The position numbers were made by a program, and so were the translations under genes. Shown piece by piece: positions 41,945 to 63,834 of a stretch of 64,000 nucleotides of DNA. The notes under the pieces were generated by a model, which saw only the letters and a program-made list of their open reading frames with translations, made no database searches and was not told the origin of the DNA. How positions within the stretch are numbered: the first letter of the stretch is position 1; every line of letters starts with the position of its first letter. The stretch is taken from contig NZ_CP012109.1 of the NCBI RefSeq assembly GCF_000280925.3, forward strand, positions 5,910,501 through 5,974,500, given 5' to 3'. Source of the stretch: Myxococcus hansupus. GTDB taxonomy: Bacteria > Myxococcota > Myxococcia > Myxococcales > Myxococcaceae.

Positions 41945-42000
41945 TATCCGCGGGCAATCAGGCTTGACCGAGGGGGCATCCTTCGCTCTTTAGCGAAGTG

Positions 42001-44304
42001 ATGCCCCTTGCACGCCTCCTCGTTCTCGCCTCGTTGCTGGCCTCGGGGCTCGCCGCCGCCGCGCCCGTCGTGCAAGTGCCGGAAGGTGGCCGCTCCGTCG
42101 AAGTGCTGACCCAGGGCGTCATTTGCGGCCCGGTCCGCAATGGATGGAGCCTGGGCCCGGATGGGCGCTCCGTCCATCCCCCCGCGAAGCCGGACGAAAG
42201 CGCGCGGACGCAGGACCTCAAGGTGGCGGACACCGCGGCGCAATGCGCCACCACGGAGCGCATCGTCACGGTGATTGCGACGGGCCCTCTGCCGCGCATC
42301 GACGCCTCCGGGACGTCGTTCTACCCGGACGAAGGCCGACTGGAGCTGCGCGGCGTGGGGCTGCTGAACGTGGGCATCGCCTGGTCCGGACAGCCGCGCG
42401 GCGAGCCGGAGCGGCCTCCCATGGAGGGCCAGGACATCTGCCTGTCTCCCTCCAAGCCGAAGGGCCTGGCCGACTGCGCCGTTCCCGTGCCGCAGGGCCT
42501 TCCCACGGACACGTCGCTCTATTGGATTCCGCCCTACGGCCGCATCGGCCCCGAGGTGAGGACGTACGATGCCTACGGCAACCTGGTGGACCCCGAGACG
42601 CTCCGCGTCCGCCCCGGTCGCACCATCCTCACCGAGCCCCTGGTGCTGTCCAACGGCATCGACGTGTCCAAGGGCCCGGGCAGCGTCCCCGTCAGCCACT
42701 CCGAGGCAATCGCGACCACCGACTGCGGCATCGCCCGGTGCGAGCCCGACGAGGGCTTCATCTCCGTGCGCAACGTGCCGGGCGTGGACGCGAGCATCAC
42801 GCTGCGCGCGCGCCTGGTGCCCCGCGTCTTCTTCTCTCGCGGCGACGTGTTGGACCAGGTCATCACCACCACGCTGTCGGTGCTGGCGTGCCCGTTGTCC
42901 TCCGTGGAGGGCTCGGTGTTGCGCGGGGCGGAGAACTCCGCGTTGGTGGTGCGGTTGGATCCCGTCTGCGCGCACGACCCGCGCACCCTGGTGTGGACCG
43001 TCAACGGCATCCGCGTCCGCGTGGAGCGCGTGGTGAAGCTGGCGGAGGGCACCTACGTGATGCTGCGCACCGCGGGGACCTCCGACCAGCAGGTGACCAT
43101 CACCGCGCTGACCTCGCGGCAGGACGGCACGGTGGTCGCGTCGGAGACGACGAAGACGCTGCCGCTGCCGGTTCCGCGCGCCAGCCTGGACCTCCCCGGC
43201 CATGGCGCCATCGACTTCATCCCCACCAACCGGCCGGCGGAAGTGCACATGGCCTCCAACGCGGGCCTGGGGCGCTTCGTGTTGGAGCCGCTGCCGGGCG
43301 CGTACAGCGTCACGACGCGGGAGTCCGCCACGCTCATTCAAGGCGAAGCCGCGCCGGGCGCCTTCGTCGCGCTGCGGTTCGGCTACCGGCTTCCCACGCT
43401 GCCCGCGGAGCTGGCCACCACGGACCTGGTGTCGGTGGACGAGCGCTTTCAACGGGTGGTGCGCGAGGCCAGCGTGCCCGCTCGTATCGAGAAACTGGTG
43501 GAGTTCGTCTGCGCGGACGCGGAGGGCAAGGACCAGCAACTGGAGCCGAGCCGCCCTCACCGGATTCCGTACGCGATGCGCAACACGTGCCGCGTCATCG
43601 TGCATCGCGAGCGCCTGAAGCCCGAGGAAGGCAACCAGGAGGTCTTGCTCCGCATCAACGTCACCAAGCCGGACGGTTCGGGACGCGGGGAGAGCAACGT
43701 CGAACAGCGCATGTTCCTGCGGCCTCAAGGCGACCAGCGCGACATCCCCGTGCCGGGCAACCTGGGGCAGTACGACCGCATCACCGTGCAGGTGTCGCAC
43801 GTGGCGGATGAGTCGCGGTATGCGCTGAGCACCACGGACCGCACCGGCCTGCCGTCCGCGCAGTGGACCGCCATCGTCACCGGCGGCCTCTTCCGGCTCT
43901 ACACGACGGCCGCCATCCCCGCGGGTCTCTACCGCGCCACCGAGCCCACCGGACAGCTCGCCATCAACTTCGGTGTCGTGTCACGCCTGGCCTTGTTGAA
44001 CAACGAAGGCCAGGAGCGACTGCTGGGAATCGAAGCGGGATTGATGGGATTGGGGCTCGTGCCGCAATCAGGAGACATCCAGTTTCCGCCCACGCTCGCC
44101 GTGGTGCTCGGATTGGGTTTGCGTGTTCCGATTGGCCCCGGCGCCGCCGTGGGTGCACAGGCGTGGATGGCCTATGAGTTCCGCGGCGACATCCGCCGCC
44201 GCACCGGTGGCGACCCGTCGCTGGACCCTGTCGTTCCGTCGAGCAAGTGGTCCTTCATCTTCGGACCGAGCATTTCTGTCGGTAATGTTGGCTTCAATCT
44301 CTGA
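42001..44304 (+). CDS. Large secreted protein of unknown function with a beta-rich C-terminus
   Basis: 767 residues from ATG 42001 (a GTG codon directly precedes it). A signal peptide, MPLARLLVLASLLASGLAAA, is clear. Residues ~25-600 are beta-rich with scattered cysteine pairs (CGPVRNGW, CATTERIV, ICLSPSKPKGLADCA, TDCGIARCEPDEGF), suggesting Ig-like domains with disulfides. The last ~150 residues alternate hydrophobic strands and Gly turns (LAINFGVVSRLALL, LAVVLGLGLRVPIGPGAAVG, WSFIFGPSISVGNVGFNL), which resembles an outer-membrane barrel half or a beta-sandwich. I recognise no family. The gene stands alone, followed by a 1.2-kb region with a minisatellite. Confidence 0.8.
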   Translation: MPLARLLVLASLLASGLAAAAPVVQVPEGGRSVEVLTQGVICGPVRNGWSLGPDGRSVHPPAKPDESARTQDLKVADTAAQCATTERIVTVIATGPLPRIDASGTSFYPDEGRLELRGVGLLNVGIAWSGQPRGEPERPPMEGQDICLSPSKPKGLADCAVPVPQGLPTDTSLYWIPPYGRIGPEVRTYDAYGNLVDPETLRVRPGRTILTEPLVLSNGIDVSKGPGSVPVSHSEAIATTDCGIARCEPDEGFISVRNVPGVDASITLRARLVPRVFFSRGDVLDQVITTTLSVLACPLSSVEGSVLRGAENSALVVRLDPVCAHDPRTLVWTVNGIRVRVERVVKLAEGTYVMLRTAGTSDQQVTITALTSRQDGTVVASETTKTLPLPVPRASLDLPGHGAIDFIPTNRPAEVHMASNAGLGRFVLEPLPGAYSVTTRESATLIQGEAAPGAFVALRFGYRLPTLPAELATTDLVSVDERFQRVVREASVPARIEKLVEFVCADAEGKDQQLEPSRPHRIPYAMRNTCRVIVHRERLKPEEGNQEVLLRINVTKPDGSGRGESNVEQRMFLRPQGDQRDIPVPGNLGQYDRITVQVSHVADESRYALSTTDRTGLPSAQWTAIVTGGLFRLYTTAAIPAGLYRATEPTGQLAINFGVVSRLALLNNEGQERLLGIEAGLMGLGLVPQSGDIQFPPTLAVVLGLGLRVPIGPGAAVGAQAWMAYEFRGDIRRRTGGDPSLDPVVPSSKWSFIFGPSISVGNVGFNL

Positions 44305-44509
44305 GCGGCCACGGCCGCTCGGGTGGAGCCCGCCATTCCGGGTGGCTTCGGCACCCGTGCGTTGAAGTGAACCGGTCCTCGCGAATGTGATCCTCCGCTG
44401 AGGACCGGCTCCCACTCACCCATCCCACACGCCCGAGCCGTCCGACCTGAAACGGGACCCCCGCCCCGTTGTGCTGCGTCACGCCCTGCATGACCGCTGA
44501 CCTGCGCTG
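44305..44509. other. Spacer between the large secreted protein gene and the minisatellite
   Basis: About 200 bases with no gene. It includes a stretch of paired GC-rich words (GAGCGGCCACGGCCGCTC at 44301-44318 is a perfect inverted repeat overlapping the stop codon of the upstream gene) and GAGGACCGG/CCGGTCCTC-like pairs at 44371-44406 that could act as terminator. Confidence 0.5.
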
Positions 44510-45297
44510 CCTTGTGCTGCGTGCTGCCTCGTGATGCGTGCTGCCCTGTGGTGCTTGTACCGCCCCGTCCTGCCCGCCGCCCGTGATGCATGCTGCCCCG
44601 TTCTGCCCCGTACCGCCCTGTCCTACGTGCTGCCCCGTCCTGCCCGTACCGCCCCGTCCTACGTGCTGCCCCGTCCTACCCGCCGCCCTTGCTGCCCCGT
44701 CCTGCCGTACCGCCCTGTCCTACGTGCTGCCCCGTCCTACCCGCCGCCCTTGCTACCCCGTCCTGCCGTGCTGCCCCGTCCTACCCGCCGCCCTTGCTGC
44801 CCCGTCCTGCCGTGCTGCCCCGTCCTACCCGCCGCCCTTGCTGCCCCGTCCTGCAGTGCTGCCCCGTCCTACCCGCCGCCCTTGCTACCCCGTCCTGCCG
44901 CGCTGCCCCGTCCTACCCGCCGCCCTTGCTGCCCCGTCCTGCCGTGCTGCCCCGTCCTACCCGCCGCCCTTGCTGCCCCGTCCTGCCGTGCTGCCCCGTC
45001 CTACCCGCCGCCCTTGCTGCCCCGTCCTGCCCGTACCGCCCCGTCCTACCCGCCGCCCTTGCTGCCCCGTCCTGCCCGCCGCCCTTACCGCCCCGTCCTA
45101 CCCGCCGCCCGTACCGCCCCGTCCTACCCGCCGCCCGTACCGCCCCGTCCTACCCGCCGCCCTTACCGCCCCGCCCTACCCGCCACCCTTGCTGCCCCGT
45201 CCTGCCGTTCCGCCCCGTCCTGCCCGCCGCCCTTGCTGCCCCGTCCTGCCCTTACCGCCCCGTCCTACCCGCCGCCCTTACCGCCCCGTTGCGCTGC
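44510..45297. repeat. Minisatellite of 18/26-base units, strongly strand-skewed
   Basis: Roughly 790 bases are built from a short unit CTGCCCCGTCCTGCCGTG (18 bases) and a longer unit that begins CTGCCCCGTCCTACCCGCCG and continues CCCTTG (26 bases). They alternate to give a 44-base composite period in the middle, and 26-base units dominate the end. I count about 28 exact copies of CCCCGTCCT plus several variants. Copies are degenerate at the left edge. The plus strand is C/T-rich, the minus strand G-rich with closely spaced G-runs. All three plus-strand frames stay open, which is an effect of the repeat and not evidence of coding. Confidence 0.9.
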
Positions 45298-45472
45298 TGC
45301 CTGACCCCATAGCAGGGCGCGTGCCGCGCGATGTCTGCATCCCAAGCCCAGCATTTCCAAGCACTTGCAGACATCCATCTGGTCCCGCGGGGCCAGCCTG
45401 CGATCGGCACCAGTAAGAAATCCGGTCCGCCTACACTGGAATACCCTCCCTGCCATTCAGGGTTGCCTGACG
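45298..45472. other. Leader region of the DUF488 gene
   Basis: 175 bases of less GC-rich, non-repetitive sequence between minisatellite and gene. It likely contains the promoter, but no clear pair of hexamers could be assigned. Confidence 0.35.
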
Positions 45473-45853
45473 ATGCCGATCAAAACCAAACGCTGGTGTG
45501 TGCCAATGGAGCAGGATGACGGATATCGCGCCTTGATATGCCGCTATCGGCCCCGGGGGCTGCCCAAGGCCAAGGAGACCTGGGACGCGTGGCAGAGCAA
45601 CCTGGCGCCGAGCCCGGAGCTCTTCGACGCCTTCTATGGAAAGGGGCGCACGCCCATCACCCTGGACGCCTACCGCGACCGCTACCTCCAGGAGATGGCA
45701 TCCCAACAGGACGCCATCACCGAGCTCGCCAGCCGCGTGAAGCGCGGTGAAACGGTGACGCTCCTCTGCTCGAAAGACTGCATCCTCGAACAGGTGTGCC
45801 ACCGCACCCTGCTGGCCGGCCTCATCGAGGCGGAAGTCGCCCGGAGCCGCTAG
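45473..45853 (+). CDS. DUF488-domain protein
   Basis: 126 residues from ATG 45473 (MPIKTKRWCVPMEQDDGYRA). RYRPRGLPKAKETWDAWQ followed by NLAPSPELFDAF and the end segment VTLLCSKDCILEQVCHRTLL match the DUF488 family, whose function is unknown although a role in nucleic-acid or redox chemistry has been proposed from conserved Cys and Arg residues. The stop codon overlaps by 4 bases with that of the convergent oxidoreductase gene. Confidence 0.75.
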   Translation: MPIKTKRWCVPMEQDDGYRALICRYRPRGLPKAKETWDAWQSNLAPSPELFDAFYGKGRTPITLDAYRDRYLQEMASQQDAITELASRVKRGETVTLLCSKDCILEQVCHRTLLAGLIEAEVARSR

Positions 45854-52999: not shown

Positions 53000-53079
53000 G
53001 GCGGCCCCTTGAAGCCCATTGCTCCGACGGGCCATTGCGCCTATGGGACGGTGCCACTCCCATTCCGCGAGGACGCAGC

Positions 53080-55128
53080 ATGGCTCAAGAGCCTCTCCAA
53101 ATCGCATCGGAGTTCCCGGCCCCATCGGTGGATGACTGGCGCCGGCTGGTGGACAAGGACCTGAAGGGCAAACCCTTCTCGGTTCTACAATCCCAGCTTG
53201 AGGGCGGCCTGTCGCTCCAGCCGCTCTACACCCAGCAGGACGCCGCCACCGCGCAGCCCGAGCCACCCGGTGTGGCCCCCTATCTGCGGGGCACCCAGGC
53301 GTTGGGGCTCACCGAGGGTGGGTGGATGCCATGCCAGGAGTACAGCGAGCCGGACGTGACGCAGGCGGCCAACGCCATCCGCACGGACCTGGAGCGCGGC
53401 ACCTGGGGCGTGTGGCTGCACCTGGGTGAGGCACACGGCATCCGCGCGCCGGACGCCGCGGCGATGCAGCGGCTGCTCGCGCACGCACCGCTCGACACGA
53501 CGCACGTCCACCTGGAGCCCGAGGCGGAGCCGCTCTCCGCCGCGAACCACTTCCTGCGCGCGGCCGAGCAGACTGGCGTGGCGCGCTCCGCGTTGAAGGG
53601 CTGCCTGGGTGTCGACCCGCTCGGCATCCTGGCGCGCACGGGAACGCTGCCCCGGGGCCTCGACGCGACGCTGGCCGAGGCCGCGCAGCACGTCACCTCC
53701 CTGCGTGAGTCCGCGCCGGGCCTGCGGGTGCTGCTGGTGTCCACGCGCGCCTACGCGGACGCGGGCGCCACGTCCGTGCACGAGCTCGCGTGGGCCATCG
53801 CCACCGGCGTGGAGTACCTGCGCGGCCTGGAGCGCGCGGGCGTGTCTCCGGACGTCGCGGCGCGCTCCATCCAGTTCGCGCTGTCCGTTGGCGGACAGTT
53901 CTTCCCGGAGATTGCCCGGCTGCGCGCGGCCCGGCTGCTGTGGGCCAAGGCCGTGGCTGCGTGCGGAGGTTCGCCGGAGGCGCAGGCCATGGTGCTGCAC
54001 GCGCGCACCGCGAGCACCACGAAGACGCAGCGCGACCCGTGGGTGAACATCCTCCGCGCCACCGCGGAGTCCTTCGCGGCCGTCGTGGGCGGCGCGGACA
54101 GCATCAGCACCTCGCCCTTCGACGAGCCGCTGGGGACGCCCGACGCCTCCGCCCGCCGGCTGGCGCGCAACACGCAGCTCATCCTGCGTGACGAGTCGAG
54201 CCTCAACCGCGTCGCCGACCCCGCGGGTGGCAGCTACTACCTGGAGCAGCTCACGCAGGAGGTTGCCCGCGCGGCCTGGGCGGAGCTGCGGCGCATCGAA
54301 TCGGTGGGCGGCATGGCCCGCGCGCTCACCGACGGTGACGTCGCCCGGGTGCTCGAGGAGACGAACAAGGCGCGCGACAAGGCCGTGCGCGCCCGCAAGC
54401 TGCCCATCGTCGGCGTGAGCGAATTTCCCCACCTGGGCGAAGCGCCCGTGTCGCGGGAGCCCCGCCCCGCGCCGTCCAGCAGCGCGGCGGCCCCCGAACC
54501 CAGCCCCACACCGTCCAGCAGCGCGGCGGCCCGCGAGCTCAGCCCCGCGCCGTCCAGCAGCGCGGCGGCCCGCGAGCTCAGCCCCGCGCCGTCCAGCAGC
54601 GCGGCGGCCCGCGAGCCCCGCCCCATGCAGTCCAGCAGCTCGGCGCCCCCGGGCGCGGCCCTGCCCCTGCGCCCGATGCGCGTGGCGGAGCCCTTCGAGT
54701 CTCTGCGCGACGCCAGCGACCGGCACCTCGCCGCGACAGGCGTGCGTCCGCGCGCCTTCATGGCCAGCCTGGGCACGGTGGCCGAGCACACGGCGCGCTC
54801 CACGTGGACCGCCAACGTCCTCGCCGCAGGAGGCATCGCGCCGGAGGACGTGCACGGCTTCAAGGACGTGACGGACGCGGCGGACCGCTTCACCGCGTCT
54901 GGCGCGCCCTTGGCCGTCATCTCCGGCCCGGACGCGCTGTACCCCGAATGGATCCCCGCGCTGACCGCGGCGCTCAAGGCGAAGGGCGCGCGCGCGGTGG
55001 CCGTGGCGGGCCGTCCCGGTGAACACGAGGCCGCCTTCCGCGCGGCGGGCGTGGACGTCTTCCTCTACGCGGGAGCGGACCTCTTCTCGCTCCTGTCCTC
55101 GCTGCACCAACAGCTCGGAGTGGCCTGA
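53080..55128 (+). CDS. mutA: Methylmalonyl-CoA mutase small (alpha-like) subunit
   Basis: 682 residues from ATG 53080 with GAGGA at 53069-53073. It has the mutase TIM barrel (~30-450: [53 protein letters not shown]-like segment [31 protein letters not shown]) and a degenerate B12-binding-like C-terminal domain (~545-682) lacking the DxHxxG His, as in other small subunits that only support MutB. Between them is a 65-residue Ser/Ala/Pro linker with four to five copies of a 13-residue unit. mutB starts by overlapping its stop codon. Confidence 0.94.
54463..54645 (+). repeat. 39-base tandem repeat inside mutA
   Basis: Four to five copies of a 39-base unit encode [13 protein letters not shown] and close variants, residues ~462-522 of MutA. 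Copies differ at a few positions (PRPAP, PSPTP, LSPAP, PRPMQ). In-frame repeat lengths would let the linker grow or shrink without frameshift. Confidence 0.85.
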
Positions 55129-61940: not shown

Positions 61941-63803
61941 TCAGCGGCCCACTTCCAACCGGCAGGTCGCGCTGCATCCGTCGCCGCTGGAGGTGTTGCT
62001 GTCGTCGCACTCCTCGCCCTCGGAGTACTGGACCACGCCGTCACCGCAACGAGGCGCCAACATGCATCCTGGCGTGCAGCCGCCGTAAGAGCCGTCATTG
62101 TTCATGCCGTTGTCGCACTCCTCATCCTCGTCGATGATGCCGTTTCCGCACAGGGCGACGCACTCCGTCCGGGCCGTGCTGAAGCGGGCCAGCGAGAGGC
62201 GATAGGAAGAGCCGCTGGTATGCCGCTCCGCCTGGAAGAGGGCGACCTCGTAGATGCCGCCAATTCGCAGGCCCAGCCGCTCCGCCGTGGGGACCGCGGC
62301 GAGCGAGATGCTTCCCGCCTCGGGCGTATGGACGCCGCCCAGGTCCAACGCCAGACGGCCGTTGATGAACACCCACACATCGTCGTCGCCCCGGAACGTC
62401 AGGACCTCCGAGCCCTTGAACTCGAACCACGCACGCATCTCGCTGGTGAAGGAGAAGTTGCGGGGCACCGAATCGGCGTCGGGTCGCGCCGGCTCGTGCC
62501 CGGCGGCCACCCAGCCCAGGCCATCCAACGGGAAGAAGCGCTGGTCATCGAACAGGTAGGCGCCATTGCCCGTATGTGACAGGTGAAGCGATGAAACGAC
62601 CGGGATGTTCACGTTCGGGACATCGCGGAACCACTGGTCGAACGCGGCCTGTCCATGCGTGGTCTGGGAGCTCCCCGGGGTGCGCGCGTACACGGGCTTT
62701 CCATCCAGGCCGAGCCACTCCTGGACAATGCCCCGCTCCGCGCCATTCTTGTTCTGGAAGTCGATGTGCCCTCGCGGAAGGCTGGAGGTCGCCGGCAGGT
62801 CGTACCCTCGGAAGTCCCGATAGACGATCGGGAGGGACACCTGGCTCGGAGGCTGCTCCGTGACGAGCGTGCAAGCGAAGCCGCTCTCGAGCCTGCACTC
62901 CGGCGAGCAGCCATCGTTCGCGCGGAGGTTGCCGTCGTCGCACTCCTCCGTGGACCCCGGATGAATCACCCCGTCACCACAAATGCTCTCGCAGTTGCCA
63001 TCGCGGCAACGCGGCTCGCGGCGGCAGTCGGGTGAACAGCCGTCACCAAAGTCGTGGTTGCCGTCGTCACACTGCTCGGTGCCCTGGACCACGCCGTCAC
63101 CGCACACCGTGCGGGAGCAGACCGAGCCCACCGTAGGACAGTGCCATCCTTCCTCTACCCGACACGTGTCAGAGCAGCCGTCGCCGCTGACGGAGTTCCC
63201 GTCCTCGCACTCCTCGGCGCCCGCGACGATGCCATCTCCGCACAACGCGGCGGAGCAGCGTCCCCCCGCCGCCGGGCAGACCCAACCCACTTCCAGCTCA
63301 CGACAGGTGGCGGAGCAGCCATCGCCGCCCACGGTGTTGCCGTCGTCACACACCTCCGGCGACTCCACCACGCCGTCGCCACAGACAGCGCCACCCGCGT
63401 CGGGCGCGGTGCCCGCGTCGAGGTCCGTCCCAGCATCAGACTCAGTGCCCGCGTCCGGCTCCGTCCCGGCATCAGACTCAGTGCCCGCGTCCGGCTCCGT
63501 CCCGGCATCAGACTCAGTGCCCGAGTCCGGCTCCGTCCCGGCATCGGACTCAGTGCCCGCGTCCGGCTCCGTCCCGGCATCCGCGTCCGGCTCCGTCCCG
63601 GCATCCGATTCGGTGCCCGCATCATCGTCGGGACGGACGCCGCCATCGTCGCCGCCGTCGCCCGCGTCGACGGGGCCGGATGCATCCGGCGCGTCCCCCG
63701 CATCAGGCCGCGGAGAAGGGTCTCCCCCACACGCGGCAAGCACCACGACCAAGACCGCAAGCATCTGCCTTGCGGCCGCAGTTCGACTCACGCTGTTCAC
63801 CAT
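61941..63803 (-). CDS. Fibro-slime domain lipoprotein with myxobacterial Cys-rich repeats (paralogue B)
   Basis: 620 residues from ATG 63803 (MVNSVSRTAAARQMLAVLVV, lipobox LAAC). An Asp/Ala/Gly/Thr linker follows (~residues 30-140), with a repeating DAGTES/DAGTEP hexad. Then about six Cys-rich DUF4215 repeats, the fibro-slime domain (IVYRDFRGYD, RGHIDFQNKN, SEVLTFRGDDDVWVFINGRL, ALDLGGVHT) and two C-terminal repeats. Same order as the protein at 17821-19572, and both start MVN. The linker is much longer here. Possibly a matrix or adhesion protein on the outer surface. Confidence 0.9.
   Translation of the reverse strand: MVNSVSRTAAARQMLAVLVVVLAACGGDPSPRPDAGDAPDASGPVDAGDGGDDGGVRPDDDAGTESDAGTEPDADAGTEPDAGTESDAGTEPDSGTESDAGTEPDAGTESDAGTEPDAGTESDAGTDLDAGTAPDAGGAVCGDGVVESPEVCDDGNTVGGDGCSATCRELEVGWVCPAAGGRCSAALCGDGIVAGAEECEDGNSVSGDGCSDTCRVEEGWHCPTVGSVCSRTVCGDGVVQGTEQCDDGNHDFGDGCSPDCRREPRCRDGNCESICGDGVIHPGSTEECDDGNLRANDGCSPECRLESGFACTLVTEQPPSQVSLPIVYRDFRGYDLPATSSLPRGHIDFQNKNGAERGIVQEWLGLDGKPVYARTPGSSQTTHGQAAFDQWFRDVPNVNIPVVSSLHLSHTGNGAYLFDDQRFFPLDGLGWVAAGHEPARPDADSVPRNFSFTSEMRAWFEFKGSEVLTFRGDDDVWVFINGRLALDLGGVHTPEAGSISLAAVPTAERLGLRIGGIYEVALFQAERHTSGSSYRLSLARFSTARTECVALCGNGIIDEDEECDNGMNNDGSYGGCTPGCMLAPRCGDGVVQYSEGEECDDSNTSSGDGCSATCRLEVGR
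63430..63615 (-). repeat. 36-base tandem repeat in the fibro-slime B linker
   Basis: A unit of 36 bases (two 18-base halves, encoding DAGTES and DAGTEP) is repeated about five times, with small variants such as DSGTES and an inserted DADAGTEP. It keeps frame, so length changes would be tolerated. Confidence 0.82.
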
Positions 63804-63834
63804 GAAACGGATGGTGAAAGCAGCTCGCACGGAA

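Follow-up and report, generated by a model that had tools for sequence, protein, structure and literature searches.

The array and its surroundings

The window, a 64,000-nucleotide stretch of the Myxococcus hansupus chromosome, holds a long tandem array of 18- and 26-base units flanked by a gene for a DUF488 protein on one side and a gene for a 768-aa protein on the other (Table 1). A first-pass annotation had described a large G-rich repeat with some 28 exact copies of its unit, and the count stands: CCCCGTCCT occurs 28 times, always on the plus strand and between 44563 and 45266, against a mean of 1.27 and a maximum of 4 in 100 shuffles, and 32 times if up to one mismatch is allowed. The 44-base composite period claimed for the array holds in its middle part only. 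From about 44712 to 45076 the 18- and 26-base units alternate (8.3 copies, 95% match), whereas to the right of about 45076 the spacing is mostly 26 bases and to the left of about 44712 it is 17-20 and 26 bases. The strong strand asymmetry that had been remarked on is evident in a GC skew reaching -0.46, with the minus strand as the G-rich one, and of the edges said to degrade, the low-coordinate edge (about 44506-44560) is indeed degenerate.

Table 1. Features of the array locus, in window coordinates
Feature	Position	Strand	Basis and remarks
768-aa protein gene, convergent neighbour, outside the RNA	41998..44304	+	without Pfam or NCBIfam match
Conserved 3' domain, GGACGGCTCGGGCGTG..GGATGGG..GGGAGCCGGTCCTC..GAGGACCGGTTC	44362..44453	-	models R1 and R3, fold; hairpin at about 44367-44410
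G-rich repeat body of predicted RNA	44454..45300	-	53% G, 22% C; the -12 element puts the predicted start near 45300
Tandem array, units of 18 + 26	44510..45297		feature of the first-pass annotation
Sigma-54-type -24/-12 promoter, CGGCACGCGCCCTGCTATG, GG-N10-GC, pointing into the array	45308..45326	-	alignment, model R2, consensus
Proximal upstream motif, candidate activator site	45354..45367		TTTCCAAGCACTTG on +, CAAGTGCTTGGAAA on -; alignments by eye
Distal upstream motif, GGACCGGATTTCTTACTGG on -, candidate activator site	45410..45428		alignments
DUF488-N3a gene, divergent neighbour, outside the RNA	45473..45853	+	Pfam PF22751, E 2e-28

Searched as DNA, the array is present at one place in its own genome and is matched in 24 of the 27 genomes of the genus, its own counted. 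Given that matches also lie in other genomes assembled as one contig (G007, G009, G010, G016, G018 and G024), an assembly artefact, a possibility raised at the outset, is an unlikely source. The array had also been described as free of genes. In favour of a protein-coding repeat region, each of the three plus-strand frames is open along 84-94% of the body in the window, but the unit lengths of 17-20, 26 and 44 bases are, 18 excepted, not multiples of three; most bodies at other loci have several frames open at once, as their composition predicts, with no one frame favoured across species; and the 257-aa plus-strand frame is without a Pfam or NCBIfam match. A coding function is thus scarcely credible.

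A predicted sigma-54 promoter and its upstream motifs

In Myxococcus xanthus the sigma-54 consensus is TGGCACG-4N-TTGC(T/A), as given in the available part of PMC7910581; the site facing into the array, CGGCACG-CGCC-CTGCT, retains the GG-N10-GC of that consensus and has C for T at two positions. In an alignment of 15 of the 17 promoter-pattern loci (L006 and L015 failed the distal-motif rule and were left out), GGCACG-N5-TGCTA is kept in 15 of 15, with two other spacer bases in one locus, a conservation that is partly circular on its own because the loci were chosen with a pattern for this very site. The pattern has a single match in the window and exactly one in each of fifteen loci (68 kb). 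A model of the promoter region built on sequence only (R2) finds it in 23 of the 27 genus genomes at E <1e-15 and, weakly, in the remaining four. By number alone the pattern is not enriched, with 47 matches in the 27 genomes against 104 for a reversed control, so that position is what gives it weight: cassettes of the kind described below account for 24 of the 47, and a leader-type locus for 15. No sigma-70 promoter was found by a scan of 44250-45500.

Upstream of the promoter lie the two conserved motifs that are candidate activator sites, the proximal one about 30 bases away and the distal one at 91-93 bases in one species group and 102 in another, a difference of about one helical turn. Two activators were compared with these motifs by eye and rejected, as neither the NmpR site, GCGCA-N5-TGCGC in the accessible text of PMC11841059, nor the Nla28 half site in that of PMC7910581 resembles them.

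The 3' hairpin and the strand of the predicted RNA

At its other end the array gives way to a conserved 3' domain of 92 bases with a long hairpin (fold -40.5 kcal/mol, z -2.75), which in the window meets the convergent gene. When 29 aligned 3' domains are read as minus-strand RNA, standard pairs fill 480 of 493 cells (97.4%), against 394 of 493 for the opposite strand, and there are 88 G-U cells on the minus-strand RNA compared with 2 A-C cells, which would be G-U if read on the opposite strand. One pair covaries (AU 15, CG 9, UA 2, GC 1, UG 1). Double-sided changes amount to 15 cells against 4.8 in shuffles and to 3 pairs against 1.3, in a structure derived from these same 29 sequences, which are related. 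Pairing, G-U bias and covariation together point to a minus-strand RNA, in keeping with the direction of the promoter. A stem is present, but no U tract follows the hairpin; a scan of 44250-45500 returned no intrinsic terminator.

Distribution and neighbours

Model R1 locates the 3' domain in 25 of the 27 genus genomes. Across the order, model R3 locates it in 39 of 145 genomes, which all belong to one family (by genus, g1 25/27, g2 1/1, g3 3/6, g7 4/4, g8 5/7, g9 1/1 and g6 0/16). The domain thus occurs in five genera besides that of the window. R3 describes the 3' domain with the promoter left out, and 29 of its 53 matched sequences were its training set. Of these 53 matches, 33 show promoter, G-rich body and hairpin in this order on the same strand, an arrangement here called the cassette, and 15 have a contig end 93-485 bases upstream, inside G-rich sequence. 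The other five are not cassettes. In G023 the hairpin is kept while promoter, array and DUF488 gene are gone; G018 contributes the reverse strand of a true match; one in G032 (L139, at 3716796) lies in coding-like DNA and, by eye, looks like a chance match; and the two in G010 (L118 and L119) are bare 3'-domain-like hairpins near gene ends, without an array, and perhaps represent a general end-of-transcript element. By the R1 and R2 searches G012 and G014, both drafts, lack the cassette, so it is either dispensable or lies in gaps.

The genes around the cassette vary. Among 20 loci that were fetched, 14 adjoin a DUF488 gene, which is 14 of the 17 that reach past the array, since L003, L013 and L017 stop inside it at a contig end; L010, L018 and L019 extend further, and the DUF488 gene is absent from their available stretch. 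The 768-aa neighbour gene is present at 4 of the 20. The cassette is therefore more conserved than its neighbours. That the long noncoding G-rich array is real holds good, while the view of it as an isolated minisatellite undersells a locus whose conserved promoter, hairpin and wide conservation had been missed.

A wider contig scan gave 15 stretches, of which seven were taken as cassettes (six in Myxococcus or Pyxidicoccus records and one in a record labelled Comamonas sp.) and eight, from unrelated taxa, as chance. The record labelled Comamonas sp. KCTC 72670 (L025) was taken to be contig G013:C11 of the window's own genus, and its label looks wrong. A phage or plasmid origin was rejected for lack of any match in the phage and plasmid collections. 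Likewise, none of 4227 Rfam models matched in 44250-45500 at E up to 1 or in 16 related loci at E up to 0.1, and a search of open papers found the element undescribed among the matches listed.

Composition and folding of the G-rich body

Bodies were measured by script in 32 of the 33 cassettes (that of G062 was missed by the pattern), and they range from 44 to 893 nt with 43-61% G and 13-28% C; 30 of the 32 reach 120 nt or more. Body length and repeat unit vary between species, yet GGGC[AG]G[TC]ACGGG is retained: 27 of 30 bodies contain it, in 165 copies altogether, where 50 shuffle sets gave at most 8, and CGGGT[TCA]GG has 189 copies in 28 of 30 against a shuffle maximum of 23. Both motifs were picked after the 9-mer list had been seen, in bodies from related species that are not independent; the unbiased 9-mer test is itself weak, the best 9-mer occurring in 26 of 30 bodies and shuffles giving up to 23. 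Gene conversion between copies could also have kept the motifs alike. Across the phylum the double motif is present in 26 of 195 genomes, all in family f1, with none for the reversed control; in its exact form it is present in 9 of the 27 genus genomes, and the search added six g6 genomes and G068. Runs of three and four G are enriched in the bodies (668 against 382 and 439 against 207 expected), and runs of five or more are nearly absent (14 against about 262).

Whether such runs form G-quadruplexes, as the first-pass annotation had suggested for the minus strand, has a mixed answer for the window array. G4Hunter scores are high (mean -1.31 on the plus strand) and pattern counts exceed those of shuffles (three-tier 15 against a maximum of 10, two-tier 31 against 26), but with quadruplexes allowed the array folds at -279.5 kcal/mol compared with -414 +/- 31 for dinucleotide shuffles, and is thus less stable. 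The window body is similarly less structured than its composition would give (-217 against -237 +/- 5.5 in shuffles). Elsewhere, among 20 of the 30 bodies, those of 120-400 nt, each set against 20 shuffles, 12 are more stable than shuffles with quadruplexes allowed and 8 less; g3 bodies and most g7 bodies fold better.

These figures bear on a role at the level of DNA, in which quadruplexes or R-loops on the G-rich strand would serve in recombination, replication pausing or local supercoiling and transcription would do nothing but open the duplex. Strand asymmetry, the G4Hunter score, the pattern counts, the enrichment of runs of three and four G with depletion of longer ones, and the g3 and g7 folds are all in keeping with it. 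Against it, the window array is less stable than shuffles when quadruplexes are allowed, and the better retention of hairpin pairing on one strand argues for RNA. Such a role is judged improbable.

Leaders of the same type at other loci

Beyond the array, the window's genome holds one further exact match to the promoter pattern, at 921000. There the promoter core is identical and the upstream motifs are alike by eye, and a G-rich leader follows of about 690 nt (728 to a later ATG), ahead of a gene for a 200-aa protein. At this second promoter's locus (L178, G000:C1:916500-926500), some 100 bases of the leader are, by eye, duplicated in tandem. The protein has no Pfam match; its structural model, built from 13 sequences, has eight beta strands and a mean pLDDT of 72.3, with residues 1-33 mostly below 50, and is suggestive of a beta-barrel-like fold. 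In the genus, 14 leader-type loci carry the promoter core with upstream motifs alike by eye.

A homologue of this predicted beta-barrel protein is encoded in g8 and g9, and body and hairpin lie directly 5' of it at 6 of 6 loci, with the promoter present at two and the other four cut by contig ends. G068 supplies a seventh locus, where body and hairpin with a promoter stand directly before the beta-barrel gene. The Myxococcus homologue is 45-51% identical to those of g8 and g9 and has the same hydrolase neighbour. At 9 of 10 loci (L194 gave no row) it is preceded by a G-rich leader, whose length up to the last ATG ahead of a conserved motif is 423-728 nt. Given that bodies of this type form the 5' leader of the beta-barrel gene in genera other than the window's, the copy in the window probably represents a leader-type RNA in free-standing form.

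The same loci give substance to another explanation, namely that the element is an orphaned or cis-acting 5' leader through which an envelope gene downstream has its translation or stability tuned, the window copy having lost that gene and being a relic or acting only as an end-of-transcript region. The seven loci at which body and hairpin directly precede the beta-barrel gene, together with the G-rich leaders of the Myxococcus homologue, speak for it. Yet 17 Myxococcus genomes retain promoter, upstream motifs and hairpin despite changing neighbours, which is unexpected for a relic, and on the whole this explanation seems unlikely.

A second protein has comparable leaders. In five g6 genomes a motif-bearing body lies between a CGGCACGGCAGTTGCTCTT site and a gene for a 78-aa basic protein, and in a sixth, G043, the contig ends within the body. 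Relatives of the small basic protein (L220-L239) occur in 27 of 27 genus genomes, and at 15 of 20 loci no more than about 210 bases separate a sigma-54-like site from the conserved protein motif. Since the Myxococcus leader is short and its g6 counterpart holds an array, the array is optional for the small-protein leader. Arrays thus appear to recur in the predicted untranslated RNA of sigma-54-type units and to be optional in at least one of them. At a further locus (L217, G064:C1:10129500-10134500), a sigma-54-type site leads into a long G-rich body that contains 28-base repeats, and a stem with a short T-rich tail comes after it, a candidate for another free-standing RNA.

Optional arrays are also what neutral slippage would leave behind, if a C-poor untranslated leader tolerates the growth of a minisatellite and selection maintains promoter and hairpin on other grounds. 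The range of body lengths, the units that differ by species, the short Myxococcus small-protein leader beside array-bearing g6 counterparts and the loss of the array in G023 all accord with this, and common descent plus slippage could account in part for the recurring motif and the limits on G runs. The same motif nevertheless recurs across genera far above shuffles, with G runs held to three or four, and slippage as the whole explanation is rather improbable.

A proposed untranslated repeat RNA

Taken together, the evidence makes it very likely that the array belongs to a transcription unit, and likely that what functions is the RNA rather than the DNA. The reading favoured here, if with modest confidence, is that the array forms the body of a sigma-54-dependent unit transcribed from the minus strand, whose product would be an untranslated, G-rich repeat RNA; the parts with support in the sequences are the conserved architecture of a transcription unit, the G-rich body, which at each of the 33 complete loci lies on the same strand as the promoter, the recurring motif and the hairpin favoured on one strand. 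That the RNA serves as a multivalent platform is a more tentative proposal. Many sigma-54 activators run myxobacterial development; an activator at the upstream motifs would switch on the sigma-54-type promoter, and the resulting untranslated RNA would present copies of GGGC[AG]G[TC]ACGGG and CGGGTNGG as repeated binding sites for a protein or RNA partner. Repeat copy number would set the strength of such a sponge or scaffold, the 3' hairpin would protect or end the RNA, and the RNA, we infer, would act in trans. A sponge or scaffold is preferred because the motif is retained while length, order and spacing vary, and because the body in the window has little structure for a sequence of such composition.

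More broadly, the array appears to be part of an undescribed RNA gene or leader common to many myxobacteria. A bolder and correspondingly more doubtful extension is that of a new class of long G-rich repeat RNAs in one myxobacterial family, sigma-54-driven scaffolds or sponges of variable length that exist both free-standing and as mRNA leaders, with repeat number as an evolvable control of dose. If true, this would be a second, widespread sigma-54-linked RNA family and a testable handle on RNA control in myxobacteria, and the array an unusual bacterial minisatellite, like a functional RNA rather than like coding or phase-variable DNA.

Relation to known systems

Sponge RNAs of the CsrB/RsmZ type are untranslated and carry many copies of a short protein-binding motif. 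The predicted RNA likewise has many copies of short motifs in one untranslated molecule, but its motif is not a GGA hairpin loop, and a CsrA sponge was rejected, PF02599 being found in 0 of 1 for the window's own genome and in 3 of 14 in the control rings. The pilE quadruplex of Neisseria, together with its small RNA, and the immunoglobulin switch transcripts are cases of sterile transcription through G-rich DNA, which is also what is predicted here. A CRISPR array was rejected in turn, as the units are contiguous and drifting and have no spacers.

Within the myxobacteria, Pxr was the one sigma-54-linked small RNA described among the matches listed. In the available parts of PMC5568312 and PMC5684412, Pxr of M. 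xanthus is an RNA of about 108 nt with three predicted stem-loops, and its predicted sigma-54 promoter has an enhancer region upstream; the former places pxr with nla19/pxrR on one side and a predicted NADH dehydrogenase gene on the other. The predicted RNA of the window and Pxr are alike as noncoding myxobacterial RNAs with a sigma-54-type promoter and upstream sites; they differ in that the window has a repeat body, of which these parts of the sources make no mention for Pxr. The array RNA is not Pxr itself, since its neighbours are the DUF488 and 768-aa genes and not nla19/pxrR. Long 5' leaders from far-upstream sigma-54 promoters have also been proposed in M. xanthus, again in the available part of PMC7910581. 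They share with the present element a distant sigma-54 promoter and a long untranslated RNA, whereas, as far as that part of the source goes, repeat motif, hairpin domain and free-standing form are described only here.

Other repeats in the window

Two further repeats lie within reading frames. A 39-base tandem repeat at 54457-54649 (4.9 copies) is in frame in a 697-aa ORF (53035-55128, plus strand) and looks like an ordinary coding repeat. Repeats of 36 and 24 bases at 63409-63607 are in frame in a 629-aa ORF (61941-63830, minus strand) rich in DAGTEPDAGTES.
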